This document shows positions 19,022 to 36,966 of a stretch of 64,000 nucleotides of DNA, one piece after another. A program made the translations under genes and the position numbers. The notes under the pieces were generated by a model. The model had not been told where the DNA came from. It searched no databases and was given only the letters and a program-made list of their open reading frames with translations. Position 1 is the first letter of the stretch; every line of letters begins with the position of its first letter. Origin of the DNA: Nocardiopsis sp. JB363 (GTDB lineage: Bacteria > Actinomycetota > Actinomycetes > Streptosporangiales > Streptosporangiaceae); the NCBI RefSeq assembly GCF_900143625.1, contig NZ_FRFF01000169.1, positions 1 through 64,000 of the forward strand, in the 5' to 3' direction.

Positions 19022-21847
19022 GTGCCAGCCACGAAGGGCAGCGCCGGCAAGAACGGCTCGAAGGACAACGGAAACCAGGGGGCGGGGACCGCTCTCGTCA
19101 TCGTCGAGTCACCGGCCAAGGCCAAGACCATCGCCGGTTACCTGGGGCGCGGCTATGTCGTGGAGTCCAGCATTGGTCACATCCGTGACATGCCGGCCAA
19201 GGCCGCGGAGATCCCCGCCAAGTACAAGGGGGAGTCCTGGGCGCGGCTCGGTGTCGACGTCGACGGGGACTTCGAACCGCTCTACGTCGTCAACACCGAC
19301 AAGAAGGCCCACGTCAAGAAGCTCAAGGAGCTGATGGCCGACGCCGACGAGCTTCTGCTCGCCACAGATGAGGACCGCGAGGGCGAGGCCATCGCCTGGC
19401 ACCTGCGCGAAGAGCTCAAGCCCAAGATCCCCGTCCGCCGGATGGTCTTCAACGAGATCACCAAGGACGCGATCCAGTACGCGGCGAACAACACGCGTGA
19501 GCTCAACACCCGTCTGGTCAGCGCCCAGGAGACGCGCCGGATCCTGGACCGTCTCTACGGCTACGAGGTCTCACCCGTGCTGTGGAAGAAGGTCATGCCC
19601 AAGCTCTCGGCGGGCCGGGTGCAGTCCGTCGCCACCCGACTCGTGGTCGAGCGTGAACGCGAGCGGATGGCCTTCACCTCCGCCGAGTACTGGGACATCA
19701 AGGCGGTCTTCGACGCCGCCGGAGCGGTCGCCGACGCTCCCGCCGCCTTCCCGGCCACGCTGCTGTCGGTCGATGGCAAGCGCGTCGTCGCCGGTCGCGA
19801 CTTCACCCCCCAGGGGACCATTCGCTCCGACCGGGACGTGCGTCACCTCGACGAGTCCGCCGCCCGTGGCCTGGCCGAACGCCTCGCCGGAGCCGGCTTC
19901 GCGGTCGCCTCGGTGGAGCGCAAGCCCTACCGTCGCTCTCCGTACGCGCCGTTCCGCACCACCACCCTCCAGCAGGAGGCCTCCCGCAAGCTCAACCTGT
20001 CCGCGAAGCAGACCATGCAGGTCGCCCAGCGGTTGTACGAGCACGGGCACATCACCTACATGCGTACCGACAGCACCACGCTGTCGGACAGCGCCGTCAA
20101 GGCCGCCCGCAACCAGGTGCGACGCCTCTACGGCGGCGATTATCTGCCGGACAAGCCGCGTGTGTACGCCAAGAAGGTCAAGAACGCCCAGGAGGCCCAC
20201 GAGGCCATCCGTCCGGCGGGTGACACCTTCCGTATCCCCTCCGAGACCGGTCTGTCCGGCCCCGAGTTCCGCCTCTACGACCTCATCTGGAAGCGCACCG
20301 TCGCCTCCCAGATGAAGGACGCCGTCGGCGAGTCGGTCACCGTCCGCATCGAGGGCACCTCCAGCAGCGACGAGGTCGTCCAGTTCAGCGCGAGCGGCAA
20401 GGTCATCACCTTCCACGGGTTCCTCAAGGCCTACGTCGAGGGTTCCGACGACCCTGCCGCCGACCTGGACGACCGTGAGCGCCGCCTGCCCGCCCTGAGC
20501 GAGAAGGACCCGGTCAAGGCGCAGAGCCTGGAGGCCGAGGGGCACAGCACTCGGCCTCCGGCGCGCTACACCGAGGCCACCCTGGTCAAGGAGTTGGAAG
20601 AGCGGGAGATCGGCCGCCCCTCCACCTACGCCGCCATCATCGGCACCATCCAGGACCGCGGCTACGTGTTCAAGAAGGGCACGGCCCTGGTTCCGGCCTT
20701 CCTGGCCTTCGCCGTGGTGCAGCTGCTGGAACGCCACTTCGGGAACCTGGTGGACTACGAGTTCACCGCGCGCCTGGAAGACGTCCTCGACGACATCGCC
20801 CGAGGCGAGACCGAGAGCCTGCCGTGGCTGCGGCGCTTCTACTTCGGTGGACGGACCCCCGAGGGGCAGGAGGAGACGGGTCTCAAGGATCTGGTGGTGG
20901 GCGACCACCTGTCCGAGATCGACCCCAAGGAGGTCAGCTCCCTGCCGCTGCCCGGTACCGACATCGTGCTCCGGGTCGGCCGCTTCGGTCCCTACCTGGA
21001 CCGGGACGGCACGAGGGTGAACGTGCCGGAGGACCTGGCCCCGGACGAGCTCACCCCGGACAAGGCCGAGGAGTTGTTCGCCCAGCCCAGCGGCGACCGT
21101 GAGCTCGGTGTCGACCCCGAGTCCGGGCGCACCATCCTCGCCAGGTCCGGACGGTACGGCCCCTACGTCACCGAGGTCATCCCGGAGCCGGAGGAGGCCG
21201 AGGGAGAGACCAAGCCCAAGAGCAAGGCCAAAGCCAAGGCCAAGGTCAAGCCGCGCACCGGTTCGCTCCTCAAGAGCATGGACCTGGACACGGTCACCCT
21301 GGAGGACGCGCTCCGTCTGCTGTCCCTGCCCCGTGTGGTGGGCGACCTCGACGGCGAGGACGTCACCGCGCAGAACGGTCGCTTCGGCCCGTACCTGAAG
21401 AAGGGCACCGACAGCCGCTCCCTCGAAACCGAGGAGCAGATGTTCACGATCACCCTCGATGAGGCCAAGGCGATCTTCGCCCAGCCCAAGCAGCGTGGTC
21501 GCCGCGCCGCGACCCCGCCGCTGCGCGAGCTCGGCGAGGACCCGGAGAGCGGCGCCAAGATGGTGATCAAGGACGGCCGTTTCGGCCCCTACGTCACCGA
21601 TGGAGAGGTCAACGCCTCCCTGCGCAAGGACGACGAGGTCGCGTCCATCACCGATGAGCGTGCCGCCGAGCTCCTGGCCGAGCGCCGGGCCAAGGCCCCG
21701 GCCAAGAAGAAGGCGCCCGCCAAGAAGAAGGCCCCGGCCAAGAAGACCACCGCGAAGAAGGCGACGACGACCACCACCAAGAAGGCGACGACGCGCAAGC
21801 CCGCCGCCAAGAAGACCGGCGAGCCGAAGACCACCGCCACGGAGTGA
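19022..21847 (+). CDS. topA: DNA topoisomerase I
   Basis: A type IA topoisomerase of 941 aa that relaxes negative supercoils. The TOPRIM domain has LVIVESPAKAKT (E29) and DEDREGE (116-122); the catalytic tyrosine is Y346 in GHITYMRTDST. After the core come several ~50-residue C-terminal repeats with GRFGPY motifs, and then a Lys/Ala tail (KKKAPAKKKAPAKK) that binds DNA. The zinc-finger cysteines of E. coli TopA are absent, as in other actinobacteria, where the Lys tail supports processivity. GTG 19022 has AGGGGA 6 nt upstream; an earlier in-frame start at 18791 would add an Arg-rich stretch unlike the family. It is the first gene of the conserved topA–tmk–holB group. Confidence 0.97.
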   Translation: MPATKGSAGKNGSKDNGNQGAGTALVIVESPAKAKTIAGYLGRGYVVESSIGHIRDMPAKAAEIPAKYKGESWARLGVDVDGDFEPLYVVNTDKKAHVKKLKELMADADELLLATDEDREGEAIAWHLREELKPKIPVRRMVFNEITKDAIQYAANNTRELNTRLVSAQETRRILDRLYGYEVSPVLWKKVMPKLSAGRVQSVATRLVVERERERMAFTSAEYWDIKAVFDAAGAVADAPAAFPATLLSVDGKRVVAGRDFTPQGTIRSDRDVRHLDESAARGLAERLAGAGFAVASVERKPYRRSPYAPFRTTTLQQEASRKLNLSAKQTMQVAQRLYEHGHITYMRTDSTTLSDSAVKAARNQVRRLYGGDYLPDKPRVYAKKVKNAQEAHEAIRPAGDTFRIPSETGLSGPEFRLYDLIWKRTVASQMKDAVGESVTVRIEGTSSSDEVVQFSASGKVITFHGFLKAYVEGSDDPAADLDDRERRLPALSEKDPVKAQSLEAEGHSTRPPARYTEATLVKELEEREIGRPSTYAAIIGTIQDRGYVFKKGTALVPAFLAFAVVQLLERHFGNLVDYEFTARLEDVLDDIARGETESLPWLRRFYFGGRTPEGQEETGLKDLVVGDHLSEIDPKEVSSLPLPGTDIVLRVGRFGPYLDRDGTRVNVPEDLAPDELTPDKAEELFAQPSGDRELGVDPESGRTILARSGRYGPYVTEVIPEPEEAEGETKPKSKAKAKAKVKPRTGSLLKSMDLDTVTLEDALRLLSLPRVVGDLDGEDVTAQNGRFGPYLKKGTDSRSLETEEQMFTITLDEAKAIFAQPKQRGRRAATPPLRELGEDPESGAKMVIKDGRFGPYVTDGEVNASLRKDDEVASITDERAAELLAERRAKAPAKKKAPAKKKAPAKKTTAKKATTTTTKKATTRKPAAKKTGEPKTTATE

Positions 21848-21882
21848 CGATGGTGCTCGCCGCGGGCTGGCGCTTCGCGTGA

Positions 21883-21926
21883 CCGTCCATCCGGGCGTCT
21901 CCCACGGGAGATGTTCGGGTGGACGG
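21883..21926 (+). terminator. Terminator of topA
   Basis: A 21-bp stem with four G·T pairs and a 2-nt AC loop (21883-21903 with 21906-21926) is followed by TTTC, 36 bases past the topA stop. Confidence 0.75.
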
Positions 21927-22111
21927 TTTCCGGTGTTTCGTAACGCATACGGGACCTCCCCCACTGTCGGGGAATGATCTTCCGTACTACGCTGAGCATG
22001 GCTGATGGGGGCACGGAATCGAGTGCGATCCCCGGAGGTATCCCCCGAATCCCCGGACGGGCGACAAGCGCCCGTCAGTACCAATCCCCCTCATCGATAA
22101 TCTTGAGCGCT

Positions 22112-24220
22112 ATGAGCAGATCTGCACCCCTGGGAGCGCCGACCGAGGCGCGGAACGTCCTCGCGATCACACCCTTCCGTAGGTTGTGGGTCTCGCTTTC
22201 CCTGTCCAGCCTGGGGGACTGGCTGAGCCTTCTGGCCTTGGTGTCCCTCGCGGCCATCTTCACCGCCGACGGCTCCACTCTCGTTCAGTACCTCGTCATC
22301 GCCGGGGTCGTCGCCATCAAGTTGGCCCCCGCGGTCCTCCTGAGCCCCTTGGCGGGGTTGGTGGCCGACCGGCTAGACCGTCGATGGACCATGGTCGGCG
22401 GTGACGTCCTCCGGGGCCTGCTGTACGTGTCCATCCCGGTCATGGGGCTGCTGGTCCCCGGGTTCGCGTTGCAGTGGCTGCTGATCGCGGGCCTGCTGGC
22501 AGAGATCGTGGCCCTGTTCTGGACACCCGCCCGGGACGCCACCATCGCGGTCCTCGTTCCCAAGCGCATGCTCGGTCAGGCCGGCCGTCTGACCCTGTTG
22601 GCCACCTACGGCGCCGCGCCCGTGGCGGCCTTGCTCTTCGCGGCCCTGGCTTCGGTGGGCAACCTGCTGGGCGCCCTGCTGCCCTCCATGGCCGACCCCG
22701 CGGCCGACGTCGCCCTCTACCTCAACGCCCTCACCTTCTTCGTCGCCGCGATCGTCGTGGCCGGGCTGCCGCTGCCCAAGCACACGGTCTCCAAGACGTC
22801 GCTGAGCCCCAACCGGGACGCCGCGCTGATGCGCTCGCTCGGCAACGGCCGCGAGGCCGTGGGCGCCGGTCCGCTGACCCGAGGCGTGCTCTTCGGCCTC
22901 GCCGTCACCGCCGCCGCGGGTGGTCTGGTCATCGGCCTGGGCCGACCGCACGTGGAGAACCTCGGAGCGGGCAACGCCGGCTTCGGTTTCCTGGTGGCCG
23001 CGCTCTTCCTGGGCCTGGGGCTCGGTGTGGTCTCCGCGCCGCGCGTGCTCAAGCAGTTCAGTCGCCGTCGGTTCCTCGGGCTGTCCGTGGCGCTTGCCGC
23101 GCTGGCCCTGCTCATCGCCGGCGCCACCACCGACATGGTCCTGTCGGCGGTCCTGGCGTTCGTGCTCGGACTGGGCGCGGGCCTGGCCTGGGCCACCGGT
23201 ACCTGGCTGATCAACGTCGAGGTCGAGGAGGAACGGCGCGAGGCCGCCTTCGCCCTCCTGCACGCCACCGGACGGATCGCCCTGCTCACCGCGGCCGTCC
23301 TGGCCCCGGTCGCCGCCGGTTTCGCCGGAGACCACGAGTTCCCGCTCGGTGGGCCGCTCACCTACACCCTGTACGGCAGCGGACTGGTCCTGCTCGCGGG
23401 CGGTCTCGTCGCCCTGGTACTGGCCTTCGTCGCCTACCGCCAGGCCAACGCCGAGGACCCCGACGCGGGTCCCGGCCTGCTGCCGGAGCTGTTCGCCGCC
23501 CTGCGCGGGGTCAGCCCTCGCGCCGAGGAGGTGGAGGAGTCCACCATCGAAGGAACCTTCATCGTCATGGAGGGCGGAGAGGGCGCCGGCAAGTCCACCC
23601 AGGTCCGTGACCTGACCGTGTGGCTGCGCGACCAGGGCTTCGAGGTGGTGGGAACCCGCCAGCCGGGTGCCACCAAGCTGGGGATGCGGCTGCGCGGCAT
23701 CCTGCTGGACCGCGAGAACTCGCACATCACCGACCGCGCCGAGGTGCTCCTGTACACGGCGGACAAGGCCGACCACGTCCAGCAGGAGATCCTGCCGGCG
23801 TTGCGTCGCGGCGCCGTGGTGATCAGCGACCGTTACGTCGACTCCCTGCTGGCCTACCAGGGCGCCGGACGCGACCTGGCGGTGCCCGAGATCAAGGAGA
23901 TCAGCGACTGGGCCACTCAGGGGCTGGTTCCGGACCTCACGGTGCTGCTGGACGTGCGCCCCGAGGAAGGGCTGGCACGACTGGGCGGCCCCGCCGATCG
24001 GATCGAGGCGGAGTCGGCCGAGTTCCACGAGCGCGTCCGGAAGGGGTTCCGTGCCCTGGCCGAGGCCGAGCCGGACCGCTACCTGGTTTTGGACGCGGGT
24101 GAGACCCGGGAGCGGGTCGGTCGGGAGATCCAGCGTCGGGTGCGTCCGCTGCTGCCGGACCCCATCGCCGCCGAGTCCGAGGCCGTCACCGGCATGATCC
24201 CGGTGATCCGACCGGAGTAG
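22112..24220 (+). CDS. tmk: MFS-type membrane protein fused to thymidylate kinase
   Basis: About 702 aa in two parts. The first ~430 residues have about 12 hydrophobic helices of an MFS-like transporter (SLGDWLSLLALVSLAAIF, then LSPLAGLVADRLDRR). The last ~220 are a dTMP kinase: Walker A GGEGAGKST, TRQPG where TREPG is usual, RAEVLLYTADKADHV, the catalytic DRY in ISDRYVDS and a LID region near LDVRPEEGLARLGG. The kinase makes dTDP from dTMP for DNA synthesis. This fusion is known in actinomycetes; the transporter's substrate is unknown. ATG 22112 is preceded only by a weak GAG, and in-frame starts exist as far up as 21974, so the start is uncertain. Confidence 0.85.
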   Translation: MSRSAPLGAPTEARNVLAITPFRRLWVSLSLSSLGDWLSLLALVSLAAIFTADGSTLVQYLVIAGVVAIKLAPAVLLSPLAGLVADRLDRRWTMVGGDVLRGLLYVSIPVMGLLVPGFALQWLLIAGLLAEIVALFWTPARDATIAVLVPKRMLGQAGRLTLLATYGAAPVAALLFAALASVGNLLGALLPSMADPAADVALYLNALTFFVAAIVVAGLPLPKHTVSKTSLSPNRDAALMRSLGNGREAVGAGPLTRGVLFGLAVTAAAGGLVIGLGRPHVENLGAGNAGFGFLVAALFLGLGLGVVSAPRVLKQFSRRRFLGLSVALAALALLIAGATTDMVLSAVLAFVLGLGAGLAWATGTWLINVEVEEERREAAFALLHATGRIALLTAAVLAPVAAGFAGDHEFPLGGPLTYTLYGSGLVLLAGGLVALVLAFVAYRQANAEDPDAGPGLLPELFAALRGVSPRAEEVEESTIEGTFIVMEGGEGAGKSTQVRDLTVWLRDQGFEVVGTRQPGATKLGMRLRGILLDRENSHITDRAEVLLYTADKADHVQQEILPALRRGAVVISDRYVDSLLAYQGAGRDLAVPEIKEISDWATQGLVPDLTVLLDVRPEEGLARLGGPADRIEAESAEFHERVRKGFRALAEAEPDRYLVLDAGETRERVGREIQRRVRPLLPDPIAAESEAVTGMIPVIRPE

Positions 24221-24263
24221 CGCCCCACGACACGGCGCACCACGCCACGGCACTTCACGAAAC

Positions 24264-24293
24264 AGGGCCTCCCACCGCGCGGTGGGAGGCCCT
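24264..24293. terminator. Bidirectional terminator between tmk and the PG-binding gene
   Basis: A perfect 13-bp stem (24264-24276 with 24281-24293), loop GCGC, lies between two convergent genes. Confidence 0.8.
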
Positions 24294-24307
24294 CGCCGGA
24301 TCAGGGG

Positions 24308-24880
24308 TCAGTCGACCGAGACCTCGTCGGGGGTCAGCAGGGCCTGGAAGGTGATCGGCCCGACCTCGCCGTCGGGGTCGATCTCCGCGCCGGTCTGGAA
24401 ATCGATCACCGCGTCGCGCGTCGCCGGACCGAACTGCCCGTCCAGGTCCAGGTCGTACCCGTGCCCGTTGATCAGCGAGTACTGGACGGCCTTCACCAGG
24501 TTGCCGCTGTCACCCTGGCGGACGATTCCCAGGTCGTCGGTCAGGGCGCTCCAGGTCGGCTCGTCGACGATCCCGGTCGCGTCGACGCCCTCGGCCTCCT
24601 GGTATTCCAGCACGGCTTCGGTCAGCCGCTCATCGAACACCTCGGTGGCCTCGGTGACGTCGAGGTAGCCGTACTCCACCAGCAGGAACTTGACGACCGC
24701 GACCTCCCAGGTCTCCTGGCCCTCCTGGAGCTCGGGCCACGAAGCGGCCTCGATCGCGGCGACCACCTCGGGTGGAGTGTTCGGACCGTCCGCCAGCGCG
24801 GCCGGCGCCCCCGCGAGGCCGAACCCCGCGACCATGGCGCCCGACGCGAACAGCATCGTGATCCCTCGTGCCTTCGACAT
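24308..24880 (-). CDS. Secreted peptidoglycan-binding-domain protein
   Basis: A 190-aa exported protein. The signal peptide (1-30) ends APAALADG. Two PG_binding_1-like modules follow; the first (about 45-112) includes FDERLTEAVLEYQEAEGVDATGIVD and the second (about 115-185) DGQFGPATRDAVIDFQ and DGEVGP. It has no catalytic domain, so it probably binds cell wall only. AAGGAGG lies directly upstream of the ATG with good spacing, which suggests strong translation. It is oriented against the surrounding tmk and holB genes. Confidence 0.82.
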   Translation of the reverse strand: MSKARGITMLFASGAMVAGFGLAGAPAALADGPNTPPEVVAAIEAASWPELQEGQETWEVAVVKFLLVEYGYLDVTEATEVFDERLTEAVLEYQEAEGVDATGIVDEPTWSALTDDLGIVRQGDSGNLVKAVQYSLINGHGYDLDLDGQFGPATRDAVIDFQTGAEIDPDGEVGPITFQALLTPDEVSVD

Positions 24881-25153
24881 ATGTCCTCCTTCTGCGGTGC
24901 GGGCGGCGCCCCCGTTGTGGCCGCCCTCTACCCGGAGAGATCCGTCGCACCGGGTTCGGGTTCACCTCCAGAACCCTTCTGACCTGCTTCGGCCCCGATG
25001 ACAACCGCTAAGAGAAGGTCGCGTCGGGTCGCGTGGCCGAGCGCGGATCCCTTGGGGAAACGGTGGAGAAGGGCCTGTGGAAAACGGTCCGGGCGTCGGT
25101 GCCGGCTCCTATCCTGGAGACCGAACCAATGAGCCGTGGATAGGGGAAAGCGC

Positions 25154-28103: not shown

Positions 28104-28179
28104 GCCGCCTTAGCTCAGTCGGTAGAGCGATTCACTCGTAATGAATAGGTCATCGGTTCGATTCCGATAGGCGGCTCCA
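28104..28179 (+). tRNA. tRNA-Thr (anticodon CGT)
   Basis: Acceptor GCCGCCT pairs with AGGCGGC; D-arm TAGCTCAGTCGGTAGAGC; anticodon stem ATTCA/TGAAT around CTCGTAA gives CGT; T-arm GGTTCGATTCC. The CCA end (28177-28179) is encoded. A possible -10 (TAGACT) lies at 28061-28066. Confidence 0.96.
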
Positions 28180-28299: not shown

Positions 28300-28314
28300 T
28301 ACGGTACGAAGCGC
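28300..28314 (+). promoter_or_regulatory. Shared promoter-like motif, copy 1
   Basis: TACGGTACGAAGCGC ends 35 nt before ATG 28350. The same motif (consensus TAMGGTRCRWAGCGC) precedes all three beta-helix genes and includes a TANNNT -10-like core. Confidence 0.6.
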
Positions 28315-28349
28315 CACATTCCCTCTTGAGCCCCTCCAGGAGCCGACGC

Positions 28350-30065
28350 ATGCACTCGGTACGCGTGTCGAAGACCGATCCCAACGCCTACCTCTCGCTG
28401 TCGGACGCGGTGACGGCCTTTCGGATCCGGGACCTGACGGAGGGCCTCTACCTCCACGTGGAGCCCGGCACCTACGAGGAGAAACGACCGATCTCCTACC
28501 CCGGGCCGCTGATGATCGTGCCCACTCATGGGCCGGAGACCGTGGAACTCACCGTGGACGGGGACTGCGCGGTGATCGAAACCGAACACTCGCTTGAGCT
28601 CTACGGGATGCTGATCCGCTCCAAGAGCCGGGACCGACCGCAGATCGAGGTGAGGGGCGATGGCCGACTCAAGGCGGTCGACAGTTGGTTCGTGGGCCAT
28701 GTCCCGGTACGTCTGCGGGGGAAGGGTGAAAGCGAGTTCGTCGACTGTCGGTTCGTCGGCACCGGCCTGGAATGGCGTGGTGGCACCGGCCGGATGCACC
28801 GGTGCGTCTTCTACCAGGCGGGCATGTCCCTCGGGGAAGGGGCCGCGGTGGTGGCCGAGGTACTTCGGTTCTCGGGCTTCGAGGGCGGGGACGTGGGCGC
28901 GCCGACCCTGGAATTCTCCTGGTCCCGGGCGAGGATCACCGACTGCGTGATCAACGATGGCGGGTTCAACGAGACGGCTTCTGTGGACTACGTCGTACGC
29001 GTCACCAACGGCTCCGTGGTCCACTTCACGGATCTCGCCATCGAGGACGCCGAGAACAAGGCGATCGGGATCCTGGGCGCGACCACACGCGTCGACTTCA
29101 CCCGTCTCAGAGTGGCCGGCGGCTTTGGAGGGATGTACACGGTCTACGTCCAGGACTCCGAGCGGGTGGGTTTCACCGACAGCCGGATCCGCCACCCCAA
29201 GGGCGCCGGAATGAAGATGTGGAAGGCCACCCTCGTCGTCGATGGTCTGACCGTGGAGGAGACGAAGTATACGAACCTCACGGTGGAGGACGGTGTTCTG
29301 GAGGGACGAGGACTCACCCTGCGGCATGGACAGAAGGGCGACCTGCTCAACATGATCCGTTCTCGGGGACGTCTGAGCGACGTGGAGTTGAGCGACCATC
29401 ACCCCGCTCTGCTGAGGCGGAGCGACGGGCTGGACTACCTGGAGTCCGGGGCGGTGATGACGGAGGCGGGCGACCTCGAACTGGAGAACGTTCGGGCCTT
29501 CGACCTCGACGGGTGGTTGCTCGGTGTGCGGGGCGGCGTCGCCGTGTTGTCCATGGTGGTCGCGGAGCGGGTCGGTATGACGGCGTTCGTTGGCAAAAGC
29601 GGCAGGGCACGATTGGACGATGTGCGATCGACCCAGGGGACCAAGCTCCAGTTGAGCGTGCACTCCGCCGGGTTCCTGGAGGTGTCGAACAGTCACTTCG
29701 AGGGGAACGAGTACGGCCTTGCCCGGGTGCACGGCGGCGGTCTCACCCTGCGTTCGACGGTGTTGACCGGTACCCGACAGGAGGGAGTGTGTGTGGAGGG
29801 AGCCGGGTCTGTCCTGCTGGAGGACTCCGAGATCCGCGACTGCGGAGGGGCGGGGATCGTCGTGCGGGACGAAGCCGGGAAGGTTCGCCTCGTACGCTCG
29901 ACGATCGCGGAAACCGGCGGTGCCGGGGTCCGGGGAGACAAGGACGCGACCTACGAGTTCGAGGACTCCGTGTTCCGGGACAACGATCTGAACCAGGCAG
30001 CGGATCCTGCCCCGGATCCCGACTCGGAGCCGGACCCGGAGCCGGAGCCCTCCACCACGGGGTGA
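28350..30065 (+). CDS. Parallel beta-helix repeat protein without ATPase domain
   Basis: About 571 aa made of repeated short beta-strand turns (patterns such as VHFTDLAIEDAENKAIGI and LEVSNSHFEGNEYGLARV), typical of right-handed parallel beta-helix proteins. It starts MHSVRVSKTDPNAY, matching the starts of the next two genes, and ends in an acidic Pro/Asp/Glu tail (after DNDLNQAA) where the paralogues continue into AAA+ domains. There is no signal peptide or membrane segment, so it is probably cytoplasmic. The pectin-lyase-like catalytic residues are not evident; it may be a binding or scaffold protein. AGGAG (28338-28342) 7 nt before ATG 28350 fixes the start. The function is unknown; partnership with the two neighbours is inferred. 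Confidence 0.8.
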   Translation: MHSVRVSKTDPNAYLSLSDAVTAFRIRDLTEGLYLHVEPGTYEEKRPISYPGPLMIVPTHGPETVELTVDGDCAVIETEHSLELYGMLIRSKSRDRPQIEVRGDGRLKAVDSWFVGHVPVRLRGKGESEFVDCRFVGTGLEWRGGTGRMHRCVFYQAGMSLGEGAAVVAEVLRFSGFEGGDVGAPTLEFSWSRARITDCVINDGGFNETASVDYVVRVTNGSVVHFTDLAIEDAENKAIGILGATTRVDFTRLRVAGGFGGMYTVYVQDSERVGFTDSRIRHPKGAGMKMWKATLVVDGLTVEETKYTNLTVEDGVLEGRGLTLRHGQKGDLLNMIRSRGRLSDVELSDHHPALLRRSDGLDYLESGAVMTEAGDLELENVRAFDLDGWLLGVRGGVAVLSMVVAERVGMTAFVGKSGRARLDDVRSTQGTKLQLSVHSAGFLEVSNSHFEGNEYGLARVHGGGLTLRSTVLTGTRQEGVCVEGAGSVLLEDSEIRDCGGAGIVVRDEAGKVRLVRSTIAETGGAGVRGDKDATYEFEDSVFRDNDLNQAADPAPDPDSEPDPEPEPSTTG

Positions 30066-30147
30066 CCTCTGACCGGACCTACGACGACGGGCCGGAACCG
30101 GCCAGGTCGGCTCGACCCCTCCACGGCTTCGGAACTCCGGTGAACGC

Positions 30148-30162
30148 TAAGGTGCGTAGCGC
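30148..30162 (+). promoter_or_regulatory. Shared promoter-like motif, copy 2
   Basis: TAAGGTGCGTAGCGC ends 30 nt before ATG 30193, in the 127-base gap after the first beta-helix gene. Confidence 0.6.
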
Positions 30163-30192
30163 ATCCACCCCTTCACCTTCCGGAGTAGACGC

Positions 30193-33100
30193 ATGCACAC
30201 GGTCCGCGTGTCTCAGAGCGATCCCGGCGCCTTCCGTTCCCTGGGAGCCGCCGTCCGCGCCCCCTTGTACGCGAATACGGACCTGTACCTGCACGTCGAT
30301 CCGGGGCACTACGTCGAGGACCGGATCATCTCGGTGACCCGGAAGATCATGGTGGTGCCCACTCAAGGGCCCGGGACCGTGGAGATCACACGGAATGCCG
30401 ATGGCAACGTCTTCATGGTCAAGCCCAGCGGGAGGTTGGAGCTTTACGGAGTCCGGGTCGAGGGCGGCGCCGGCGAGTACCCCTCGCTGTACGTGGAGGA
30501 GGGTGCCCACCTCAAGATGGTGGACTGCGTATCCCACGACAAGGCCAGATTGGGCCTGAACGGCCGTTCGCACGAATTGGTCAACTGCCGGTTCGAAGGC
30601 GCCGGGATCCTCTGGAACAAGGGGGGAGGGATCGTCCGGGACTGCGTGTTCGAGGAAGCGGCCCTCAGCATCCTGGGAGGAGGTTCGCCCACGGTGGAGC
30701 GGGTGCGCTTCCACGGGGGCAACGACCAATACCACTCACTGTTCGTGTCCGACTGCGCGCCGACCATCACCGACTGCGAGCTTCGGGAGTGCGGTGGGAA
30801 CGGGTCCTGGTCGGTGTGGGTGGAAAAGGGCGCTCGGCCGAAGTTCACCGACCTGACGGTCGAGGGCGACCGCGGATGTCCGGTGCGGGTCACCGGCTCG
30901 GGTACCCGGGCGAAGTTCACCCGGCTGCGCGTGGCCGGTGGCGCGGAGGGCGGTGACTCGGTGCACGTACTGGACGGCGCCGAGGTCGAGCTCGACGACG
31001 CCCTCGTCGAGAGGGCCCCGACGAACGCGGTGTGCGCGGTGGAGAGCACACTCACTTTCTCCGACCTGGTCGTGCGGGGGGTGGAGGGCGCCGCGTTGTA
31101 CGCGAACGAGGGCCGGGTGAACGGCCGGGGTTTCCGTGCCTTCGATCTGGGCGGCAACGCGGGCAACTTCGTCAAGAGCCGGGTGAGCCTGACGGGCCTG
31201 GAACTCGCCGAGCACCGGAGCGGGGCCCCCGAGGGTGTGTTCGGCGTCTACGTATCCGGTGGGAGTGGTGAGTTCAAGGGGGTGCACGGACGCGATCTCA
31301 AGGGGGCCTGCTTCGGTGTCCACGACGCTCATGTCTCCGTGACGGACCTGGTCGGGGAGAGGGTCCTCGGCGGGATCCTGGCCCAGGACGGTGCCACCGT
31401 CGAGGTCCACGGCGTGGAGATGACCGAGCCCGAGGGCAACGCCTTCCACATCAGCGCCGGCAGCCGGATGGAGGTGACCGACGCCCGGATCGTCGACGGC
31501 GCGTTCGACAACCTCTACGTCGAGGGCGCCCGGCTCGTCCTGCGGTCGTCGACCCTGAGCGGAAGCCGCGGACAGGGGGTCTCCGTCCTGGGAGGCGGGG
31601 TCGCCACCCTGGAGGACACCGCGATCCGGGACGGGGCCGGGAGCGGGGTCCTGGTGCTGGACGATGAGAGCCGAGTCCGGCTGGTGCGGTGCCGGGTCTC
31701 CGGCCACGAGGACAAGGGCGTGGAGGCGCACGACGAGGCCGTCGTGCATCTGGAGGACACCGAGCTCGCCGACAACAGGGGCGGCGACGAGGTCCGGGCC
31801 AAGGCGAAGGCCACGGAAGGCACCGCGGCCCCCGACACCCCCACCGGTGAGGCCGGGTCCCTGGGCGACCTGCTCGCCGAACTGGACACGATGGTGGGCT
31901 TGGACGGGGTGAAGAAGGAGGTCCGATCGCTGGTCGTCTTCCAGCGGGCGAACGCCAAACGCACCGCGGCGGGGCTGCCGGCGCTCAATGCCCGCCGGCA
32001 TCTGGTCTTCTCCGGTCCGCCCGGGACCGGCAAGACCACCGTGGCCCGGCTGTACGGCGAGATCCTGCGCTCCCTGGGGGCCTTGGACAACGGCCAGTTC
32101 GTCGAGGTGGGCCGCCAGGACCTGGTCGCCGAACACCTGGGCGGCACCAGCGCCAAGGTCACCAACGCCGTGGAACGGGCGCGCGGCGGGGTGCTGTTCG
32201 TCGACGAGGCCTACGCGCTGTCCCGGAAGTTCGGCAGCGGCAGCGACTTCGGCCAAGAAGCCATCGACACGCTCATCAAGCTGATGGAGGACCTGCGCGA
32301 GGAGGTCGTCATCGTCTTCGCCGGGTACTCCAGCGAGATGCGGACCTTCCTCGACGCCAACACGGGGCTGCGTTCGCGCGTGGCGCGGACGATCGAGTTC
32401 GAGAACTACTCTCCCGAGCAGCTCACCACCATCATCGAGACGATGGCGCCCAAGCAGGGCTACACGCTGGGGGAGGGCGTGCGGGACCTGTTGGTCCGCC
32501 ACTTCCAGGGGCAGAGCCGGGACGAGACGTTCGGCAACGGGCGCGAGTCACGGCGTCTGTTCGAGGAGATCGTCCAGGCCCAGGCCGGGAGGATCGTCGC
32601 CGGTGACGTCAGCTCCGCCGAGGACCTCGCGCTGATCTTGCCCGAGGACCTGGAAGGGGTCGTGGACACCGGTCTGTCCGCGCGAGTGGGCGGGCCCCGT
32701 GACGCCGAACAGACCCGGGAGCTCATGGACCGTCTGGAGAACATGGTGGGGCTCGCCGAGGTCAAGCGGGAGGTCGCCGACCTCCTCAGCCTCATCTCCG
32801 CGAACCGGCGCCGTCAGGAGGTGGGACTGGCCACCTCGATGTCCGCCCAGCACTTGGTGTTCTCCGGTCCACCCGGGACCGGCAAGACCACCGTGGCGCG
32901 GATCTACGGGCAGCTCATGGCCGCCTTGGGCGTGCTCGCCCAGGGGCAGGTGGTCGAGGCCGCCCGCGCGGACCTGGTGGGGTCCTACATCGGTCACACG
33001 GCGCAGAAGACCAAGGACGTGTTCGAACGGGCGCGCGGCGGGGTCCTGTTCATCGACGAGGCCTACACGTTGTCCCGCCCGGGCGGGACCGGCGGCGACT

Positions 33101-33528
33101 TCGGGCAGGAGGCCATCGACACCCTGCTCAAGCTCATGGAGGACCACCGTGACGAGGTGGTGGTGATCGCCGCGGGCTACACCGGTGAGATGGACGGCTT
33201 CCTGGGCAGTAATCCCGGGCTGGCGTCCCGGTTCTCCCGCACCGTCGAGTTCGCCCCCTACGGAGAGGAGGAGCTGTCGAGCATCTTCGTGGGAATGGCC
33301 GAAGGTGCCGACTTCCTGGTTCCCGAGGAGACCCGCGCGGCTCTGGCGCAGACCATGGGGCGGGAGACGGTGCGCCTGTCCGACGGCAACGGACGGGAGG
33401 TCCGTAAGCTCTTCGAGGCGAGTGTGACCCGGCAGGCGCGTCGGATCGAGGCGTCCGCTCTGGCCGGGGGCGTCCCCGGACTGAGCGAACTCCAGACACT
33501 GTCACCGGAGGATGTCGTCGGGTTCTGA
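30193..33528 (+). CDS. Beta-helix protein with two active-type CbxX/SpoVK AAA+ domains
   Basis: A 1111-aa protein. Residues 1 to ~540 form a parallel beta-helix, opening MHTVRVSQSDPGAF. Then come two AAA+ domains of the CbxX/CfxQ (SpoVK, EccA-like) class. AAA1 has Walker A GPPGTGKT at 608-615 and Walker B VLFVDEA with D671/E672; AAA2 has GPPGTGKT at 892-899 and VLFIDEA with D955/E956. Both keep arginine-rich SRH-type segments (LRSRVARTIEF, LASRFSRTVEF). Such AAA+ proteins form hexameric rings that remodel protein partners (CbbX acts on Rubisco). The helix domain probably recognises or holds a target. No signal peptide. GGAG 7 nt upstream sets the start. Substrate unknown. Confidence 0.88.
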   Translation: MHTVRVSQSDPGAFRSLGAAVRAPLYANTDLYLHVDPGHYVEDRIISVTRKIMVVPTQGPGTVEITRNADGNVFMVKPSGRLELYGVRVEGGAGEYPSLYVEEGAHLKMVDCVSHDKARLGLNGRSHELVNCRFEGAGILWNKGGGIVRDCVFEEAALSILGGGSPTVERVRFHGGNDQYHSLFVSDCAPTITDCELRECGGNGSWSVWVEKGARPKFTDLTVEGDRGCPVRVTGSGTRAKFTRLRVAGGAEGGDSVHVLDGAEVELDDALVERAPTNAVCAVESTLTFSDLVVRGVEGAALYANEGRVNGRGFRAFDLGGNAGNFVKSRVSLTGLELAEHRSGAPEGVFGVYVSGGSGEFKGVHGRDLKGACFGVHDAHVSVTDLVGERVLGGILAQDGATVEVHGVEMTEPEGNAFHISAGSRMEVTDARIVDGAFDNLYVEGARLVLRSSTLSGSRGQGVSVLGGGVATLEDTAIRDGAGSGVLVLDDESRVRLVRCRVSGHEDKGVEAHDEAVVHLEDTELADNRGGDEVRAKAKATEGTAAPDTPTGEAGSLGDLLAELDTMVGLDGVKKEVRSLVVFQRANAKRTAAGLPALNARRHLVFSGPPGTGKTTVARLYGEILRSLGALDNGQFVEVGRQDLVAEHLGGTSAKVTNAVERARGGVLFVDEAYALSRKFGSGSDFGQEAIDTLIKLMEDLREEVVIVFAGYSSEMRTFLDANTGLRSRVARTIEFENYSPEQLTTIIETMAPKQGYTLGEGVRDLLVRHFQGQSRDETFGNGRESRRLFEEIVQAQAGRIVAGDVSSAEDLALILPEDLEGVVDTGLSARVGGPRDAEQTRELMDRLENMVGLAEVKREVADLLSLISANRRRQEVGLATSMSAQHLVFSGPPGTGKTTVARIYGQLMAALGVLAQGQVVEAARADLVGSYIGHTAQKTKDVFERARGGVLFIDEAYTLSRPGGTGGDFGQEAIDTLLKLMEDHRDEVVVIAAGYTGEMDGFLGSNPGLASRFSRTVEFAPYGEEELSSIFVGMAEGADFLVPEETRAALAQTMGRETVRLSDGNGREVRKLFEASVTRQARRIEASALAGGVPGLSELQTLSPEDVVGF

Positions 33529-33584
33529 CCGACCCTGGCCACAAGGGGTATAGGCCGTATCGGGTTCCCGGACCCTGGGCTGGA

Positions 33585-33599
33585 TACGGTACATAGCGC
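33585..33599 (+). promoter_or_regulatory. Shared promoter-like motif, copy 3
   Basis: TACGGTACATAGCGC ends 49 nt before ATG 33649, in the 120-base gap after the second beta-helix gene. Confidence 0.6.
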
Positions 33600-33648
33600 A
33601 GACCCTTTGGCGCGGCGCCGCGGCCGCTACCCCCTTGGGAGTCGATGG

Positions 33649-36600
33649 ATGATCACGGTCCGCGTCTCGAAGACGGATTCCGCCGCGAGCTCCTCCCTCG
33701 GGCAGGTGCTCCGAGATCCCCGGTACACGGGCTCGGACCTGTACCTGCGGGTGGAGCCGGGTGACTACGTCGAGCCCCAGGCGGTCGGCGTGTTACGGCG
33801 TGTGGTCGTGGCGCCCACCGAGGGGGCGGGCAGCGTCACGGTCACCGCGACCAACGAGACCAACGTCTTCAACGTGCACAAGGGCGGCGACCTGGAGCTG
33901 CACGGGGTCAGCGTGCGCAGCTCCTCGGACGAGTACCCGCCGCTGTACGTGCAGGAGGGTGCCCGGCTCCGCGCGGTCGACTGCGTCTTCACCTCGCCGC
34001 GGCGGGTGACCGTGACCGGCGCGCACGCCGAGGTCGTCGGCTGTCGCTTCGAGGACAGCGGCCTGCTGTGGGACGGCAGCGAGGGCTTCGTACGCGATTG
34101 CTACTTCGCCGGTGCGGTGATCGCCGTCCAAGGGGCGTGTTCTCCGAAGGTCAGCGGGACCATCTTCACGGGGGCCCACGACGACTGGCACACCCTGTAC
34201 GTGGCGGGCGCCTCCCCGGAGGTGAGCGATTGCGCGCTGGTGGACGGGGGCGGCATCTACGTCCGGGATCGGGCCGCGCCCGAGTTCACCGACGTGCGGG
34301 TCACCGGTTCGCGCGACTGGCCGGTCCGGGTCTACGAGCGTTCTCGCGCCGACTTCACCCGGCTGGTGGTGGAGTCGCCCGACAAGGCGGAGACGGACGC
34401 CTTCTTCGTCCACGGGGATTCCGAGAGCACCCTCCGCGACTGCGAGATCCTCGGCTCCACCCGGACCGGGCTGGCGATCGAGGGCGGCCGGCTCACCGTG
34501 CGGGGGCTCACGGTGGACGACGCGGCAGCCGACGCCGTCCTCATCGACGGCGGTGAGGCCACGGTGACCGACCTGCGCTGCGACCGGGTGGGCAAGGCGG
34601 CCCTACTGGTCGCGGACGGGGCCCGCGTGACCGTGTCGGGGATGTCGGTGGCCGAGAGCGTCCAGGAGGGGCGTGGAGCGATCGCGGCGGTGCGCTCGCG
34701 TTTCGAGGTGACCGACCTGCGGGTGAGTCGCTGGCACGGTCCGATGGCCATCGTGGTCGGCGGTACGGGGATCTTCGAGGACATCGTCGGCCACGACGTG
34801 GGGTCGGGGATCCACAGCCGGGAGGACGCCACGATCACCGTGCGCGGCATGGTGCTGCGCGACGCCCGTGAGGACGGTCTCAACATCCTGGACGGCACCG
34901 AGGTGCGTCTGGTCGACGCCGACCTGTCCGAGTGCGGCGAGGACGGTGTCTACGTGCAGGGCGGCTACGTCACGGTCCGCTCCTCCACCTTCTCCGGCAG
35001 CGGCGAGCGCGGGGTGCGCGTGGGCGAGGGCGGTGTGGCGGCGCTGGAGGACACCGCGATCAGGGACGGCCGGGGCGACGGGCTCATGGTGGAGGACGGT
35101 GGCCGGGTGCGGCTGGTGCGATGCACCGTGTCGGGCAACGACGACGAGGGGTTGTGGGCCGCCGCCGGCGCTTCCGTCTATCTGGAGGACAGCACCTTCA
35201 GCGGGAACCGCGGTGGCGACGGCGAACGTGTGGTCGCCCGGAGCGCGGGTGCCGCGGGCCGTGCCGGCGGGAACGGGGACGGGGCGGTGCGGGACCGTGA
35301 ACGTTCGCTGGACTCACTGCTCACCGAACTGAACGCGTTGGTCGGGCAGGAGCGGGTCAAACGGGAGGTCCGGGCGCTGGTCGATCTCCAACGGGTGAGC
35401 GCCAAACGGGTCGCGGCGGGGCTGCCCGCGCTGAACGTGGGCCGCCACCTGGTGTTGGCCGGGCCGCCCGGGATCGGGAAGACGACCGTGGCCCGGTTGT
35501 ACGGGCAGATTCTGAGGTCCCTGGGCGAGTCCGAGCGTGGACGGTTCGTGGAGGTGGCCCGGCCCGACCTTGTGGCCGAGTACCAGGGTGGCACTCGGGC
35601 CCGCGTGGTCGAGGCCGTGGAGCGGGCGCGCGGCGGGGTGTTGTTCGTCGACGGGGCGCACGCCCTGTTCGGGGAGTCCGAGACGGCGGACGTGCACGGC
35701 CGGGAGGTGATCGACACCCTGGTCACCTTGATGGAGGAGCCGGGCGAGGAATTCGTGCTGGTGCTGGCCGGGCACTCCGATCGGCTTCGCTCCCTGCTCG
35801 ACGCCGCTCCCGGGCTGCGTTCACGGCTGGCGCGGACCGTCGAGTTCGAGGACTACTCGCCCGACCAGCTCGCCGGGATCTTCGCCGGGGCGGCCACGGA
35901 ACGCGGCTACGCCCTGGGGGAGGGGGTGCACGACCTCCTGGTGGGGCACTTCCGGCACCGGGTACGGGGTGTGGCCTTCGACAACGGGCGCGAGGTCCGC
36001 AGGATGCTCGGGGGCGCGGCCAAGGCCCAGTCCGAACGGATCGCCGAGGGCGGCTACACGACCGTCGACGATCTCACCCGGCTCCTGACCGAGGACCTGG
36101 AGGGGGTGGCCGCCCCCGAGGTGGCCGACCCTGATCGGCGGACGGGCGGCCAGGTCACCTCACTGATGGCCCGACTGGACTCCCTGGCGGGTCGTGGCGA
36201 GGTCAAAGAGGCGCTGGCCCGACAGCTGTCGAGCCTGTTGTCGTCTCCCCGACGCGGTAGTGGGGACACGGAAGAGCGGCCCTCACGCCACCTGGTGTTC
36301 TCCGGACGGACGGGGACCGGGCGTGCCACCGTGGCCGGACTCTACGGCGAGCTCTTGGCGGCCTTGGGCCTGGTCGCGCGTGGGCAGTCGGTACGTCTTC
36401 GGGCCGACGACCTGGTGGAGCGGGGGAGTCCCTCCAGAGAGGCGGTGGAGGCCTTCGAACGGGCGCGGGGCGGGGTGCTGTCGGTCCTCCTACCGGGGCC
36501 GGGGGAGACCGGGGGAGCGGGACACGGTCGGGAGACGGCCGACGTCCTCGACGGGCTGATGGAGACGCACCATGACGATGTGGTGGTGGTCCTGGCCGGC

Positions 36601-36966
36601 GACCCCGAGACGGTGGCGTTCCTCCTGAGGTCCCGTCCTCATCTGGCGGAGCGGTTCGCCGGGCTGGTGGAGTTCGCGCCCTACAAGACCGACGAGCTGG
36701 TGGGGGTCTTCGCGGCGATGGCGGAGGAGGCCGATCTGCGTCTGCCGGAACGGACCCGCGAGGCACTGGCGGGCCTGATCGGAGCGCCGACGGGCGGTTT
36801 CGCCGAACGTGGTGGTGTCGAGGTCCGTGCCCTGTTCGAGGAGTGTGTGGCGCGCCAGGCACGGCGGATCGAGGCCGCGGCCCACAGGGGTGAGATTCCC
36901 GAGGTGGCCGAACTCCAGACCCTGTTGCCCGAGGATCTGCCGGAGGGAGGGGAGAGCGAGGACTGA
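33649..36966 (+). CDS. Beta-helix protein with two degenerate AAA+ domains
   Basis: A 1105-aa paralogue of the preceding protein with the same layout: beta-helix to ~535, then two AAA+ domains. In AAA1 the Walker A is intact (GPPGIGKT, 605-612) but the Walker B glutamate is glycine (LFVDGAH, G669), so it may bind but not hydrolyse ATP. In AAA2 the Walker A lysine is arginine (GRTGTGRAT, R892) and the Walker B acidic pair is lost (VLSVLLPG, 943-950). The frame is otherwise intact and long, so it is not a pseudogene; a non-catalytic partner of the active ATPase is the simplest reading. GGGAG 7 nt upstream supports ATG 33649; an earlier in-frame start at 33607 would add an Arg-rich stretch absent from the paralogues. 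Confidence 0.85.
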   Translation: MITVRVSKTDSAASSSLGQVLRDPRYTGSDLYLRVEPGDYVEPQAVGVLRRVVVAPTEGAGSVTVTATNETNVFNVHKGGDLELHGVSVRSSSDEYPPLYVQEGARLRAVDCVFTSPRRVTVTGAHAEVVGCRFEDSGLLWDGSEGFVRDCYFAGAVIAVQGACSPKVSGTIFTGAHDDWHTLYVAGASPEVSDCALVDGGGIYVRDRAAPEFTDVRVTGSRDWPVRVYERSRADFTRLVVESPDKAETDAFFVHGDSESTLRDCEILGSTRTGLAIEGGRLTVRGLTVDDAAADAVLIDGGEATVTDLRCDRVGKAALLVADGARVTVSGMSVAESVQEGRGAIAAVRSRFEVTDLRVSRWHGPMAIVVGGTGIFEDIVGHDVGSGIHSREDATITVRGMVLRDAREDGLNILDGTEVRLVDADLSECGEDGVYVQGGYVTVRSSTFSGSGERGVRVGEGGVAALEDTAIRDGRGDGLMVEDGGRVRLVRCTVSGNDDEGLWAAAGASVYLEDSTFSGNRGGDGERVVARSAGAAGRAGGNGDGAVRDRERSLDSLLTELNALVGQERVKREVRALVDLQRVSAKRVAAGLPALNVGRHLVLAGPPGIGKTTVARLYGQILRSLGESERGRFVEVARPDLVAEYQGGTRARVVEAVERARGGVLFVDGAHALFGESETADVHGREVIDTLVTLMEEPGEEFVLVLAGHSDRLRSLLDAAPGLRSRLARTVEFEDYSPDQLAGIFAGAATERGYALGEGVHDLLVGHFRHRVRGVAFDNGREVRRMLGGAAKAQSERIAEGGYTTVDDLTRLLTEDLEGVAAPEVADPDRRTGGQVTSLMARLDSLAGRGEVKEALARQLSSLLSSPRRGSGDTEERPSRHLVFSGRTGTGRATVAGLYGELLAALGLVARGQSVRLRADDLVERGSPSREAVEAFERARGGVLSVLLPGPGETGGAGHGRETADVLDGLMETHHDDVVVVLAGDPETVAFLLRSRPHLAERFAGLVEFAPYKTDELVGVFAAMAEEADLRLPERTREALAGLIGAPTGGFAERGGVEVRALFEECVARQARRIEAAAHRGEIPEVAELQTLLPEDLPEGGESED

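Follow-up and report, generated by a model that had tools for sequence, protein, structure and literature searches.

Three adjacent genes in the window, the whole 64,000-nucleotide stretch of DNA analysed, are genuine, well-preserved paralogues whose evolutionary paths have clearly separated. At the level of sequence, gene B (a beta-helix with two AAA+ domains) has a conserved ATPase part and a less conserved helix, while in its neighbour C the helix has remained near-unchanged and ATPase residues have been lost. With a probability of about 0.5, the trio is read as a beta-helix offshoot of the EccA/CbbX/SpoVK ATPases that is independent of type VII secretion (T7SS), in which B would be a remodelling ATPase with a changing helix, C an ATP-independent protein with a frozen helix, and A a helix-only form. 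It is improbable that the three products make up one fixed machine, and hetero-rings would be optional at most.

Anatomy of the gene trio

Genes A, B and C are co-directional and lie downstream of a tRNA-Thr gene (Table 1). The start of C was set at the ATG common to its relatives; a TTG at 33607 is further upstream. The proteins open with HSVRVSKTDP (A), HTVRVSQSDP (B) and ITVRVSKTDS (C), sharing the motif VRVS[KQ][TS]D. All three matched Pfam Beta_helix PF13229, with E-values of 5.8e-17, 1.3e-17 and 1.5e-25 and scores of 62.2, 64.3 and 90.1 bits for A, B and C, above the gathering cut-off of 25.9 for this right-handed beta-helix. Pairwise identity was 27-42% in the helices and 36-56% in the AAA domains, a paralogy well above chance. 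The preliminary description had proposed tandem paralogues with a common opening and a beta-helix, as was confirmed by the frames, Pfam and the identities.

Table 1. Positions in the window of the trio, its domains, its upstream elements and the preceding tRNA gene.
Feature	Positions	Strand	Description	Basis
tRNA-Thr	28104..28179	+	anticodon CGT	ARAGORN
Upstream element of A	28300..28315	+	TACGGTACGAAGCGCC, 2 mismatches	
Gene A	28350..30065	+	right-handed parallel beta-helix only, without AAA, 571 aa	Pfam
Upstream element of B	30148..30163	+	TAAGGTGCGTAGCGCA, 2 mismatches	
Gene B	30193..33528	+	beta-helix and two intact CbxX-type AAA+ domains, 1111 aa	Pfam, model
B beta-helix	30193..31800	+	residues ~1-535	model, divergence
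B AAA1	31858..32667	+	residues ~556-825; Walker A/B intact, pore-loop His (AEHLGGT)	
B AAA2	32710..33516	+	residues ~840-1108; Walker A/B intact, pore-loop Tyr (GSYIGHT)	
Upstream element of C	33585..33600	+	TACGGTACATAGCGCA, exact	
Gene C	33649..36966	+	beta-helix and two degenerate AAA+ domains, 1105 aa	Pfam, model
C beta-helix	33649..35238	+	residues ~1-530	model, divergence
C AAA1	35290..36114	+	Walker A retained, catalytic Glu replaced by Gly	
C AAA2	36160..36936	+	Walker-A Lys replaced by Arg, Walker-B Asp-Glu and pore loop gone	

AAA PF00004 was found in two stretches of B and one of C, and AAA_lid_6 in two stretches of each, with neither family present in A in the Pfam search. Pfam and the active-site residues also agreed with the earlier assignment of A as helix only and of B as a helix with two intact CbxX-type AAA+ domains. 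AlphaFold models of B and C had mean pLDDT values of 87.6 and 85.0, mostly above 90 in the helix part. Since pTM was 0.52 for both, the placement of the helix relative to the AAA domains is unsure.

The state of the ATPase sites was followed in 31 rows of B and 24 rows of C, both partly redundant. Walker-A Lys and Walker-B Asp-Glu were present in both domains of B in 31/31 rows, as was an aromatic residue (Tyr or Phe) in the pore loop of AAA2, where the GSYIGHT of the window's B aligns with GQYIGHT of CbbX. C had been described as carrying two decayed AAA+ domains; both are indeed degenerate, but the decay is unequal. AAA1 of the window's C retains Walker A (GPPGIGKTT), the Walker-B Asp and the arginine-finger stretch, with the catalytic Glu gone (VDE to VDG), and may bind but not hydrolyse ATP. 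Across the C rows, Asp-Glu-Ala was retained in AAA1 in 6/24 and the Walker-A Lys in 21/24, while AAA2 had lost the Walker-B Asp-Glu and the pore-loop aromatic residue in 24/24 and the Walker-A Lys in 18/24. The reading frame was free of internal stops in 11/11 C genes, a broken copy in the draft genome G009 being kept separate.

Relation to EccA, CbbX and type VII secretion

Solved structures closest to B by sequence, and to the B and C models by Foldseek, were those of CbbX (PDB 3syk, 3syl, 3zuh). CbbX, the red-type Rubisco activase, is like B in the aligned AAA2 pore-loop Tyr, a residue that is required for activase function according to excerpts of PMC5437159, but it has a single AAA domain, no beta-helix and Rubisco as its target. 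With the CbbX model TIGR02880, B scored 418.9 and C 243.3 bits, below the cut-off of 459.25. With the SpoVK model TIGR02881 (cut-off 422.95), C remained below at 276.9 and B reached 510.5, a score inflated by summing over two AAA domains against a profile of 261 positions. SpoVK has a short N-terminal domain and occurs only in sporulating Firmicutes, according to excerpts of PMC10659427; B has instead a beta-helix of ~535 residues and two AAA domains. The anti-phage family IteA/IetA (NF042959, PADLOC IetA) gave 63.2 for B, below its curated cut-off of 510. PADLOC matches of B and C were confined to the AAA domains, and A had none.

The family also resembles EccA of T7SS. B and C both have the CbxX-type AAA+ with AAA_lid_6 of EccA, and both matched the EccA1 structure 9lur. 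Scores with TIGR03922 (T7SS EccA) were 438.2 bits for B and 238.9 for C, below the equivalog cut-off of 466.65, which was exceeded by a protein of type D (see below) at L063 (477.3) and by a helix-less ATPase of the own genome at L057 (614.7). Since L063 also exceeds the SpoVK and CbbX cut-offs, these models separate double-AAA proteins poorly. The excerpts of PMC10659427 mention a beta-helix among the N-terminal domains of EccA; therefore, the helix/AAA architecture itself is not new. Clade members among the matches listed carry only general names, for example AAA family ATPase, right-handed parallel beta-helix repeat-containing protein or SpoVK/Ycf46/Vps4 family ATPase.

The own genome encodes a second helix-AAA-AAA protein of identical domain order, D (L054), which occupies the EccA position on contig C194, read as two stretches (L161 and L054) either side of bases 20001-24999. 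Upstream of D, L161 encodes a subtilase, an EccC-type FtsK/SpoIIIE ATPase, EccD, EccB and a WXG100 protein. In Streptomyces (L077), a full-length helix-AAA gene has the same T7SS set next to it, WXG100 not being among the genes checked there. Among 40 Nocardiopsis genomes, EccB was found in 31, and D, at an identity of no less than 59%, was present in 30 of these 31 and in 0/9 EccB-negative genomes, the exception being the fragmented G018. Genes of the trio type, hereafter array genes, were found in 13/31 EccB-positive and 4/9 EccB-negative genomes (Fisher p = 1), the latter being G005, G007, G010 and G021 (4 of the 17 holders). D is thus encoded in a T7SS locus and co-occurs with it, and A, B and C neither lie in one nor follow one in their occurrence. 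Since D tracks EccB and the array genes do not, D goes with T7SS, and A, B and C are independent of it. They differ from EccA in this and in including degenerate and helix-only paralogues.

Several neighbours of these loci were recorded. Giant frames precede D on T7SS contigs (L058; L054 193-11073); the covered stretches contain 6664 and 3626 aa of them, the 3626-aa frame having no Pfam match at E 0.001. Two conserved genes stand directly before D (~120 and 556 aa; L063 13597-13962 and 11857-13527, with relatives in L060, L066 and L072), with no family match above a curated cut-off. The helix-less CbxX ATPase at L057 7213-9567 (G000:C172) has 784 aa and a hydrophobic N-terminus, and its neighbourhood recurs in 6 of the compared loci.

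Distribution, origin and constraint

The sample of 40 genomes, 36 of them with completeness of 90% or higher and contamination no higher than 5%, contained array genes in 17, the search listing none in the remaining 23. B and C occurred together in 6/40, namely the own genome (G000), G017, G018, G033 (where B is divided between two contigs), G013 and G021. C without B was found in 5/40 (G010, G037, G022, G002 and G005), or 6 with the frameshifted draft G009, and B without C in 4/40, at the array site in G031 and G006 and at another location in G003 and G008. An A-type helix gene accompanied B and C in 4/40 (G000, G017, G033 and G013); the contig of G018 stops too soon to judge. G010 has two A-type genes alongside C. 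In G007 only helix is present, as a 2098-aa frame at the array site (L052 5762-12058) that is built of three complete beta-helix units plus a partial one and has no AAA. In two genomes with C, neither B nor D was found: G005, at 99% completeness in 210 contigs, and G010, at 100% in 2 contigs.

The array site lies between an alpha/beta-hydrolase gene and ppa, and tRNA-Thr precedes the array genes in most loci carrying them. The search did not recover this site in G020, G023 and G028 have a rearranged version, and AAA remnants remain at the site in G022 and G024. G049, from another genus, has a B-like gene at the same tRNA-Thr site. Other family members carry B-like genes elsewhere in the genome, two in tandem in G111, and copies at these other sites had no clearly linked common neighbour. 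In some other genera, the regulator-like clusters c1 and c2 turn up repeatedly at a distance of a few kb from B-like genes (L180, L181, L184, L186, L187), possibly by chance, the families being common. Behind C of G010, a short tandem repeat (L047 15051-15251) is read as a repetitive frame (GDGEGVLRRRC). In G033, an integrase-like gene and apparent integrative-element genes occur on two contigs with the alpha/beta-hydrolase and A-type genes (L211 2650-3573, L046 1-4000). Judged by these genes, all recognised from N-terminal sequences only, the tRNA-Thr may serve for attachment of such an element.

A, B and C each have their own copy of a 16-base upstream element with the consensus TACGGTACNTAGCGCA, which is seldom present elsewhere. 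With up to 3 mismatches it was found 43 to 92 bases 5' of the start in 29/35 array and B-like genes (shuffled control: mean 0.045, maximum 1), a count made on the same genes on which it was defined. The scans are the more independent tests. In the window, up to 3 mismatches gave 3 sites, those of A, B and C (shuffles: mean 0.57, 3 sites reached in 2/100). In the own genome, up to 2 mismatches gave 5 sites, three of them those of A, B and C, against 8 anywhere for the backward control. In the 40 genomes, a somewhat relaxed version of the element gave 30 sites at up to 1 mismatch, 21 of them at array genes (control 14), and 15 of the 16 exact sites were at array genes. The element is the same where the coding sequences behind it have diverged. 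It opens with a TANNNT-like hexamer, the promoter -10 consensus; therefore, it may be a promoter -10 region or an operator over it.

In helix and AAA trees (midpoint-rooted, the long-branched G007 row left unplaced), the C genes came out as a single clade (100/100), which may be either sister to the Nocardiopsis B genes or nested in them (83/41 in the AAA tree). In the helix tree this clade sits on a long stem (0.65), and its inner branches are short. Six A-type helices (G000, G017, G033, G013 and the two of G010) formed one clade (100/98) among B helices, and D with its Streptomyces relatives formed a separate one. Since every row outside the A/B/C group is B-like with intact AAA, the ancestor was B-like, and the trees show A and C to descend from it. 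Read against the AAA tree, where the forks within C are partly open, AAA2 of C appears to have been lost first, ahead of the spread of the C copies; loss of the AAA1 catalytic residues would have followed, on two lineages or more.

Mean identities after removal of near-duplicates differed in direction between the sets. For helix, AAA1 and AAA2, they were 0.41, 0.78 and 0.74 in B (26 sequences), 0.36, 0.65 and 0.63 in the D set (23 sequences from several genera), and 0.82, 0.65 and 0.58 in C (14 sequences). The helix was less identical than AAA1 in 325/325 pairs of B, 252/253 of D and 0/91 of C. Since B and D agree, C is the exception to the family habit, and B may just follow that habit with C as the sole exception.

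Ratios of dN/dS were obtained by Nei-Gojobori counting, with bootstrap 95% intervals. The helix of the window's B had 0.45 (0.34-0.64) to G017 and 0.71 (0.58-0.88) to G013, against 0.15-0.24 for the AAA domains in these pairs. B helices ranged from 0.37 to 0.92 in 10/10 within-Nocardiopsis comparisons, and B AAA domains from 0.09 to 0.40 overall. Within another genus, helix values were 0.71, 0.88 and 0.15, the last (G111_B1/G139_B) being a conserved helix that runs counter to the B pattern. C had 0.13-0.23 in the helix and 0.14-0.63 in AAA. Three A-type pairs gave 0.33 (window A to G017), 0.59 and 0.61, and the one D pair (G000/G001) showed even constraint (helix 0.17, AAA 0.13 and 0.15). No whole-domain B estimate exceeded 1, and for B to G017 and G013 and for C all bootstrap upper bounds were below 1. 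Since B-helix values are below 1, a relaxation of constraint is no less plausible than diversifying selection, and an arms race on this helix is possible but not shown.

One machine or diverging copies

The preliminary description had joined an adaptor A, a motor B and a pseudo-motor C in one machine, taken here as an obligate hetero-ring. Its three kinds of protein do exist, with AAA domains nearest to CbbX, SpoVK and EccA, and the genes are adjacent, co-oriented and alike in architecture, with Walker A retained in C AAA1. A precedent lies within the clade: according to excerpts of PMC5437159, the red-algal CbbX hexamer consists of two non-equivalent isoforms, and a Walker-B Glu-to-Gln change in one left a functional complex. 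That hexamer is 1:1 and the change engineered, whereas the changes in C are natural and C is also found where B is missing. The expected co-occurrence of the three genes failed, with all kinds in only 4/40 genomes, C without B in 5 and the reverse in 4, C in G005 and G010 without B or D, and an upstream element for each gene, so that the obligate machine is very unlikely. Somewhat better placed, though still doubtful, is an optional hetero-oligomer, in which C would be a regulator that enters B rings, or those of a different CbxX ATPase such as the helix-less one at L057 (784 aa, above the EccA cut-off), and acts solo elsewhere. Since a red-algal isoform may lose the Walker-B Glu, a B-C ring is possible in the clade. 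In addition, C AAA1 had dN/dS of 0.14-0.26 among five nearer C relatives despite the loss of the catalytic Glu, and so is still constrained, but constraint was weaker (0.54-0.58) in three more distant pairs.

Service of the trio to T7SS as EccA-type chaperones, which the likeness of D on the own T7SS contig and the EccA beta-helix in the excerpts of PMC10659427 could suggest, is hardly probable, given the location of the array elsewhere, its presence in four EccB-less genomes with p = 1 and the upstream element in 0/7 D genes. We give equally little credence to A and C as functionless decaying duplicates. Lost catalytic residues in C, the AAA remnants in G022 and G024 and the patchy presence speak for decay, but the intact frames of 11/11 C genes (the G009 draft being broken), the helix dN/dS and the upstream element with at most 1 mismatch in 11/11 C copies speak against it. 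An unlikely further reading sees secretion-freed T7SS-type chaperones as a recognition array: B and the helix-only proteins would be diversifying receptors that capture and remodel foreign or rival proteins, and C a conserved ATP-dead sensor or brake, with the locus turning over by duplication, truncation, fusion (the multi-helix frame of G007) and loss, like conflict genes.

Under the preferred reading of diverging copies independent of T7SS, B would form a ring, with ring and threading borrowed from CbbX. Its helix would dock a target, which the AAA2 pore loop would pull as CbbX does Rubisco, and the target or its docking site would change quickly. The frozen helix of C suggests a slowly changing partner, bound through that helix; AAA1 would serve for no more than ATP binding or assembly. 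Since C occurs without B in five genomes, two of them also lacking D, it can work alone or with another partner; it may join B rings where both are present, B not being required. A would be a helix-only binder or competitor.

The trio thus presents side-by-side duplicates of one motor with opposite constraint on the same two modules. The readable order in C (AAA2, then the AAA1 catalytic residues, the helix frozen) makes a role of the recognition domain after motor loss testable. In addition, it marks out a beta-helix/AAA+ clade that is EccA-like in look and has no tie to T7SS.
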